A stretch of 64,000 bases of DNA from an uncultured Chloroflexus sp. (GTDB taxonomy: Bacteria; Chloroflexota; Chloroflexia; Chloroflexales; Chloroflexaceae). The translations under genes and the position numbers were made by a program. The notes beneath the pieces were generated by a model. It was given only the letters and a program-made list of their open reading frames with translations. It ran no database searches and had not been told where the DNA came from. The stretch lies in assembly GCF_937129525.1 (NCBI RefSeq), contig NZ_CAKZNK010000037.1, positions 1 to 64,000 on the forward strand. The letters are read 5' to 3'. Positions 28,326 to 30,629 of the stretch are shown one piece after another; within the stretch, counting starts at the first letter, position 1; each line of letters opens with the position of its first letter.

Positions 28326-30629
28326 CTACTCACCGAACAGTTGCAGCAATTCGCGCCACTCGCCGGTTAGCTCGTCACGGCGCGCAGCGTAATAGATGTG
28401 GGTCACACCCTGTTCATCAATGTAGACCAGATCGACCTGTGAGCGCATCGGACGGAGATAGCCGATATTTCCCCACCAGCGCACCTTATCCTGATCGAAC
28501 GGCATATCCTGATGGAACATCCGGGCCGCGTACTCGCGCACTGTGCCCGGCTCAATATCTTGCAGCCGCCACGGGGCGCTGCTCACATCGCCGGTGCGCA
28601 GATTGCGGAAGATGTAGAGCCAATCACCCTCTTCGTTACGGGTCGCACTCACCACCTCGATACCGGTGCGGGGGCGCGGCACCCGAATCAGGGCCAGCCA
28701 GGCCTCTGAGAGCTTGTCACGCGGGACACCATTATATTCCTGCACAACGCCCGTTTCTTTATCTTTCATGACCAGGTCGAAGCGAGGCTGGCCATCACTA
28801 TCAACGAAAATACGCACCAGACCACCGCGACCGCGCCAGCGGATGCGACGTTCGGCCCACGTATCAGGCTCAGGGGAAGGCGGCACACTCACCTCTTCCT
28901 GATCGAAATCGCCGGTATCGGTCTCGATACGAGCGCCGGCTTCACTCAGCAGGCTCGTCCAGGCTTCCCCCAACCCCCAATCGCTCACACCGTAGAAGAC
29001 ATGATCAACCACACCATTCTGATCGCGATGCACCAGATCGTACTTCACGCGCGACCCCTGACGATAGGCGCGCCAGAGGCCCAATCGGCCACGCCAGCGC
29101 ACCTGACTCTGGAGATCGATCCGACTCTCACGCAAATCTTCGTGGCGACTGATGGCGTAAGCCCACAATCCCCGAGCGCGATCGCGCGTCACCCCTGCGG
29201 TCGTGCGCAAATCACGCACCTCGTAGACCCAGGTACCGCTACGGCGCTGACTGCTAACGATTTCAACCCCAGAGCGAGGCAGCTCGAGCGTCTCGCCGTT
29301 GTCGAGCGGGGATGGCTCACCGGCAGCAATGGCCTGTCGGCAGAGCTGAATGATCTCGCTGCGGTTAGCGACAATCGTTTCACTGTCGCGGCGGAGATAG
29401 ACCACGCCATTGCTGCCAACGTAGGGAGGCGGATCATTTGCCTTCACCTCGACCCGGATCACATCGCGGCCTTCGTAATGCATCAACTCAAATGACAGGT
29501 AGGGTGCCGGGATGACATGTTCAGCCACACTCTGGCGCAACGTATCGGTTACCTGATCAGGCCGTTCAATACCGACCACCTTCCCACCGGGATCACAACC
29601 AATGATCAAGACCCCGCCACCGATATTCGCCAGCGCTGCCACATCGGGCCAGAGCGTCACCGCTTGATTAGGCTCGGCCAAGGCGCGCAATACCTGGCGA
29701 TCCGTACTACCGCTGAAACGAGCGACATCGAGTGACCACTGCTTTTGATCGCGCTTCGGCACGCGCACGCGGTCAAAATCCTGGCTGGAGAAGAGCGCTT
29801 TCAGCGCTTCAAAGCTGCGGTCAGGCAGCAACGCCTCGAAGTAGCGATCACCGATCCCGTGGCGGTGAGTGGCCTGGGCATCGCCTTCTGGCAACCGGCG
29901 AAGGCGATGAGCATCGCTGCCCTGGATGCAAAACATCCGCCGCTCGTAGTGTTCGGTCTTGCCATTGTAGAAGCCAGGTGAAGTAAACTTCTCGTGGTCA
30001 GTGTAGAAATTGATAAACTCGAGCGCGTGCAGATAGGGGCTTTGAGTAACAGCCACCCGCGCCTGGCCACTCGTACCCATGCGCAACGTTTCGGTAATGA
30101 CACCGTTAGGACCGTTGGCATGAGCAGCAATGACAATCCCACCGGCACGATGAATAATCTCGTAGGCTTCAGTCACGTGACGGGTATTCGCCACGCTACA
30201 TACACCACCTTTAAGCGACTCGGCGGGAATACCGAGCTGAAGCAAGGTTGCTTCGATCAGGCTGAGCGGACGATTAGGCGGAAAGATGCCGAGAATATGA
30301 GCGCCAAAATGCGAAGTGAACTCAAAGCCGGGCAAGACGGTTATTTTCTCAAGCAGGCGACGATACTCGGCCAAACGGGCCTCTTCTTCACTCGTCAGCC
30401 GTCCGGCCTTTTCCAGCGCAACCAGAAACTCGATCTCCCGCTGAAACTGCTCATAACCGGCAACGGTATTGTGGTCAGTAAAAGCGATGATTTCAAGGCC
30501 GCGCCGCTCAGCTTCCTGAAGAATGTCAAGGTAAGAAACGTTTGGTTCGGCGTAATCCTCAGAGGCAGGCGTGTGTAAGTGCAAATCAATCCGGATCCAG
30601 CGCATCGCGTTTCGCGCTTCTGTATTCAT
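28326..30629 (-). CDS. PHP-domain + AlbA/Schlafen-like + repeated RWRG-module protein
   Basis: A 767-residue soluble protein with an unusual order of parts. Residues 11-270 are a PHP phosphoesterase domain with metal ligands H17, H19 (DLHLHT), D52, H53 (TDHN), E103, H170 and D239, H241 (GSDAH), so the active site looks intact. Residues about 315-432 resemble the AlbA_2/Schlafen ATP-binding domain (ANIGGGVLIIGCDPGGKVVG, then YLRRDSETIVANRSEI). The C-terminal third is repeated: the module around RWRG recurs at 510-561, 596-648 and 716-762, and EIVSS...DLRT recurs at 456-476 and 658-679. These modules match nothing I know. It may hydrolyse a phosphoester or nucleic-acid substrate. ATG 30629 is preceded by a leader with a hairpin; an ATG at 30605 is possible. 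Confidence 0.8.
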   Translation of the reverse strand: MNTEARNAMRWIRIDLHLHTPASEDYAEPNVSYLDILQEAERRGLEIIAFTDHNTVAGYEQFQREIEFLVALEKAGRLTSEEEARLAEYRRLLEKITVLPGFEFTSHFGAHILGIFPPNRPLSLIEATLLQLGIPAESLKGGVCSVANTRHVTEAYEIIHRAGGIVIAAHANGPNGVITETLRMGTSGQARVAVTQSPYLHALEFINFYTDHEKFTSPGFYNGKTEHYERRMFCIQGSDAHRLRRLPEGDAQATHRHGIGDRYFEALLPDRSFEALKALFSSQDFDRVRVPKRDQKQWSLDVARFSGSTDRQVLRALAEPNQAVTLWPDVAALANIGGGVLIIGCDPGGKVVGIERPDQVTDTLRQSVAEHVIPAPYLSFELMHYEGRDVIRVEVKANDPPPYVGSNGVVYLRRDSETIVANRSEIIQLCRQAIAAGEPSPLDNGETLELPRSGVEIVSSQRRSGTWVYEVRDLRTTAGVTRDRARGLWAYAISRHEDLRESRIDLQSQVRWRGRLGLWRAYRQGSRVKYDLVHRDQNGVVDHVFYGVSDWGLGEAWTSLLSEAGARIETDTGDFDQEEVSVPPSPEPDTWAERRIRWRGRGGLVRIFVDSDGQPRFDLVMKDKETGVVQEYNGVPRDKLSEAWLALIRVPRPRTGIEVVSATRNEEGDWLYIFRNLRTGDVSSAPWRLQDIEPGTVREYAARMFHQDMPFDQDKVRWWGNIGYLRPMRSQVDLVYIDEQGVTHIYYAARRDELTGEWRELLQLFGE

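Follow-up and report, generated by a model that had tools for sequence, protein, structure and literature searches.

The gene at 28326–30629 (minus strand) of the window, the whole 64,000-nucleotide stretch of Chloroflexus DNA analysed here, encodes a protein of 767 amino acids in which a PHP phosphoesterase domain is joined to an SLFN_AlbA_2 domain and a tail of repeated modules, in the order PHP-AlbA_2-(A-B-B-A-B). The open reading frame starts with ATG, and its limits were taken from the ORF list and from aligned orthologues. The gene represents a widespread and apparently important family of the Chloroflexota that none of the searched libraries or papers describes and that carries a domain family absent from Pfam. 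We give about an even chance to the explanation that fits best, namely that this chromosomal gene of the Chloroflexota has a housekeeping role and encodes a metal-dependent nucleic-acid phosphodiesterase, linked to stress, whose tail recognises a substrate or partner. In such an enzyme the PHP domain would cut or trim DNA or RNA, the AlbA_2 domain would hold the nucleic acid, and the A-B tail would dock the protein on a particular substrate or partner, with the enzyme acting in proteotoxic stress or quality control. The original prediction had called the combination of PHP, AlbA and tail unrecognised, in agreement with our searches: no description of this architecture as one whole was found in Pfam, NCBIfam, PADLOC or the PDB, and the literature search returned no paper in which PHP was paired with AlbA_2/Schlafen or with Chloroflexus.

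The PHP domain (residues 8–292; 29754–30608, minus strand) was delimited by profiles and by a structural match to endonuclease Q (EndoQ). The Pfam PHP model matched the start of the domain only, with 26.3 bits, just below the cut-off of 26.4; by its fold and nine metal ligands, the domain belongs to the PHP phosphoesterase superfamily. The metal site had been described as intact, and all ligand positions are indeed present (H17, H19, D52, H53, E103, H111, H170, D239, and H241), together with D15 and an SDAH motif. The 13 metal-site positions checked were identical in 90 of 97 aligned sequences. As modelled, the site is shown to be complete and of the trinuclear type, with a fold nearest to that of EndoQ. 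EndoQ was the best match among solved structures (Z 16.6, rmsd 3.4 over 224 residues), closely trailed by other PHP proteins (Z 14.6); in the AlphaFold model of the domain, pLDDT falls below 50 at residues 172–190, 207–226, and 240–258.

This structural match, and the fact that many Chloroflexus-like hosts are thermophilic and deamination is fast at heat, would suit a DNA-repair endonuclease like EndoQ, whose hallmark is incision 5' of deaminated bases; such an enzyme would nick beside deaminated or damaged bases while the AlbA_2 and A-B parts hold or scan the DNA. The key residues of EndoQ (D-L-H.H, E, H, H, and SDAH; PMC4357722) have counterparts in the Chloroflexus protein, which has in common with PfuEndoQ (PDB 5zb8/7k30) both the PHP fold and the metal-site motifs, including SDAH. 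We nevertheless regard this function as unlikely: identity to EndoQ is only about 14–15%, the other PHP proteins lie near in structure, and the tail was found grafted onto an RNase-type domain in one genome (G472, see below). In addition, the AlbA_2 domain and the A-B tail take the place of the C-terminal four-cysteine zinc finger of EndoQ (CPXCG; PMC4357722), and the search for a finger of this type in the Chloroflexus protein yielded only four scattered cysteines (C144, C234, C345, and C430).

Comparisons with NCBIfam and PADLOC profiles revealed that the N-terminal PHP domains of TrlF (NF045780; 2.9e-28, NCBIfam) and of the anti-phage protein Ppl (NF042955, PDLC02208; 2.2e-18) are related to that of the Chloroflexus protein. 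The similarity is restricted to residues 9–254 and stays well under the family cut-offs (99 of 350 bits and 65.6 of 1000, respectively), and the AAA ATPase part of these proteins is absent. Membership in the TrlF/Ppl families was rejected on both grounds, that is, no full-length match over the family cut-off and no ATPase part. RNase AM, a PHP 5'-3' exonuclease, has the fold in common (Z 11.9 and 11.7), and its NCBIfam model RNaseRnm matches residues 14–67 only (25.5 of 375 bits). Other PHP domains, such as those of histidinol phosphatase and CpsB, dephosphorylate small molecules or proteins, and the PHP site alone cannot separate a nuclease from a phosphatase of this sort.

The region that follows (residues 293–440; 29310–29753, minus strand) contains an SLFN_AlbA_2 domain (PF04326), which was detected by Pfam at residues 326–419 with 52.4 bits against a cut-off of 25.3 (E 9.5e-14), and its fold matched those of DIP2311 (Z 12.1), SLFN13 (Z 10.3), and SAMD9 (Z 10.1). 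The AlbA_2-like region named in the original prediction is therefore present, although nucleic-acid binding fits it better than the nucleotide binding then proposed. The protein shares domain and fold with the SLFN_AlbA_2 family (Z 10–12), but it has other partner domains and the Schlafen catalytic glutamate pair is replaced, as judged by eye in the sequence alignment. In rSLFN13, the catalytic Glu-Glu-Asp triad is formed by E205, E210, and D248, and the glutamates are needed for cleavage (PMC5862951). Since this pair is replaced here, yet kept in the ordinary AlbA_2 proteins of relatives (as GESDHLELK or GETLDVEFK), the domain probably binds rather than cuts nucleic acid. In another genome (locus L175, genome G037), a protein of 264 amino acids combines an AlbA_2 domain resembling this one with a hydrophobic C-terminus, and is a possible paralogue of the AlbA part.

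The tail units were delimited by aligning 97 relatives and by profile-profile comparison, which gave the order A1-B1-(linker)-B2-A2-B3, all on the minus strand. The first unit, supported by profile-profile comparison and AlphaFold, consists of A1 (residues 452–508; 29106–29276) and B1 (residues 509–564; 28938–29105), the latter with an RWRG motif. It is followed by an acidic linker of low confidence (residues 565–595; 28845–28937), recognised by its charge of about -6 and by a pLDDT below 50 at residues 571–589. The modules B2 (residues 596–648; 28686–28844; RWRG), A2 (residues 655–713; 28491–28667), and B3 (residues 714–767; 28329–28490; RWWG) were delimited by profile comparison, the unit-1 profile and AlphaFold. 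Of the three RWRG and two EIVSS...DLRT modules proposed beforehand, the repeats hold but the third RWRG does not, as it reads RWWG. The two A units are similar to each other (E 6e-10), as are B1 and B2 (2e-13), B1 and B3 (7e-13) and, more weakly, B2 and B3 (8e-5), while the two A-B pairs matched at 2e-19. Within the same protein, the unit-1 profile recovered the second A-B unit (E 4e-14) and the lone B (6e-7). Comparison of A against B profiles gave no signal, and a single fold for both was rejected at the sequence level. AlphaFold predicted beta-beta-beta-alpha for A and four strands plus a helix for B, with a tail pLDDT of 86. The whole protein is acidic (pI 5.8), and A1-B1 is its only clearly basic part.

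The profile search and structure prediction, which had been suggested as checks on the module, revealed no known Pfam family or PDB sequence for A-B. Among 31 members no Pfam family was found, the best stray match having an E-value of 0.016 in two of them; PDB sequences gave nothing at E 10, and comparison of the tail fold with the PDB gave nothing above Z 3.9. The highest of these fold matches were to a polo-box (Z 3.9), a chromodomain (Z 3.5), and PUR-alpha (Z 2.4), and the chromo-, Tudor-, PUR-, and polo-box-like matches of the modelled tail may serve as weak leads. Scattered matches with TM-scores near 0.1 were obtained among viral structures. The unit-1 profile detected the A-B module in 63 of 400 genomes of the phylum, and none of the complete genes checked had A-B without PHP and AlbA, except the one for the NYN protein of G472. 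Apparent stand-alone copies were rejected: those in G613, G706, G642, and G522 are short ORFs cut off by contig ends, and the gene in G527 is broken by a stop codon. The A-B module is an undescribed domain family, which the sampled genomes carry almost exclusively in PHP-AlbA proteins. It may sense a ligand or nucleic acid, as originally suggested, and a recognition function of the tail, if confirmed, would represent a new way of targeting PHP enzymes.

The window is a Chloroflexus contig, and the nearest named relatives are Chloroflexus islandicus and other Chloroflexus. Among good genomes, the gene was present in all 45 of the order Chloroflexales, in 74 of 93 of the class and in 44 of 217 of the phylum sample, and a second class, searched with one of its own members, had the PHP-AlbA-A-B gene in 141 of 210. 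Phyla beyond the Chloroflexota were searched with six exact peptide patterns only, which reach close relatives. Nearly all genomes with the gene have a single copy of it; the gene tree agrees with families and taxonomy, and inheritance is vertical. In comparison, the restriction domain HSDR_N, used as a control, occurred in 30 of the 45 genomes of the order, with 0 to 7 copies each, and in three of the eight of the genus. GenBank phages and viral contigs contained no copy of the gene, and plasmids yielded only a distant Ppl PHP domain; a PHROG helicase match (E 0.0018) spans the AlbA part only.

The original prediction had implied a defence system, and the presence in 45 of 45 genomes of the order, the vertical inheritance, the absence from phages and the patchy restriction control all speak against it. 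Enrichment of defence genes near homologues, which would have accompanied such a system, was likewise absent when the neighbours of 44 loci (127 proteins) were scanned with PADLOC. The neighbours are housekeeping genes, and the main PADLOC matches (BrxL, IetA, and PD-T4-6) look like generic cross-matches of Lon, AAA, and kinase proteins. An anti-phage protein of the Ppl/TrlF kind would be in line with the related PHP domains and with the link to defence of bacterial Schlafen proteins that have other partners (cited in PMC12839542). It is nonetheless very improbable, given that the gene is core, single copy and vertical where these same genomes carry the restriction family only patchily, that the AAA/STAND ATPase part is absent, that phages carry no copy and plasmids carry Ppl only, and that the neighbours are housekeeping genes with apparently generic PADLOC matches. 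With one copy in nearly all close relatives, the gene looks more like that of a housekeeping enzyme, perhaps involved in stress, than like a phage-defence system.

Outside the Chloroflexales, the protein has the form PHP-AlbA-linker-A-B, with a linker ranging from short to about 300 amino acids; judged from the aligned and modelled modules, the Chloroflexales are shown to have expanded this tail by B-A-B to A-B-B-A-B. In one genus (g21 of family f4; loci L127, L128, and L129) the PHP metal ligands were lost, while AlbA and the repeat tail were retained. Catalysis would hence not be the whole function, and the loss points to a putative role independent of it. In genome G472, a 510-amino acid NYN protein (locus L192, 5789–7315, plus strand; NYN E 4.6e-32) ends in A-B (97 bits). 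No PHP-AlbA relative was found in this genome, which is 97% complete, and other members of its family carry the ordinary PHP-AlbA form. The swap is suggestive, as it comes from one genome only. It attaches the A-B module to an NYN-type RNase domain where the PHP-AlbA gene is missing, and for this one reason the target is more likely to be RNA or a ribonucleoprotein than DNA.

Genomic context analyses revealed a recurrent association with Lon protease: in 12 of 31 non-Chloroflexales loci (nine families), the Lon gene precedes the PHP-AlbA gene on the same strand, in most cases immediately. Lon was also found within 2 kb upstream in six of 18 loci fetched afterwards, one of which has two intervening ORFs and a split Lon frame; these six are only partly independent, because most come from families already represented. 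The linkage is absent from the Chloroflexales and from families f11, f13, f14, and f35, and in f11, f13, and f14 a divergent CvpA-like gene lies upstream. In L117, L122, L125, and L189, a gene for a single receiver-domain protein stands between Lon and the PHP-AlbA gene, immediately before the latter; in L123, Lon itself follows an HSP20 gene. Both kinds of neighbour were confirmed with Pfam. Being linked to genes for Lon, HSP20, and receiver domains, the PHP-AlbA gene may act in stress or quality control, and the Lon linkage and the NYN swap provide concrete leads to the substrate. More tentatively, and with low confidence, A-B could be a new domain for recognising RNA or ribonucleoproteins, by which two unrelated nucleases, PHP-AlbA and, in one lineage, NYN, would be directed to one target, in a Lon-linked stress RNA quality-control pathway peculiar to the Chloroflexota.

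The receiver-domain genes that adjoin the PHP-AlbA gene in these four loci would also accord with a regulator, in which PHP senses a small nucleotide or phosphate signal and AlbA_2 and the tail control transcription; AlbA_2 domains are often found in proteins annotated as regulators, and the genus that lost the PHP ligands kept the rest of the protein. Pfam revealed no recognisable HTH or sensory domain, and a full PHP site that is so well conserved speaks for catalysis, so that a regulator appears quite unlikely and the phosphodiesterase is preferred.

In Chloroflexus, the gene is flanked by a convergent methyltransferase and a divergent Xer-like tyrosine recombinase (31112/31234–32185, plus strand), located about 480–600 bp away; the original prediction had given 600 bp. 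A functional link between the two genes was rejected, given that the recombinase is missing in about half of the relatives searched; in two congeners, it lies about 417 kb (G003) and 253 kb (G006) from the gene, and the adjacency is accidental synteny. Each Chloroflexus genome searched had one strong copy of this recombinase, not always beside the PHP-AlbA gene, and it has the appearance of a long-established chromosomal gene, not of a newly arrived mobile element.
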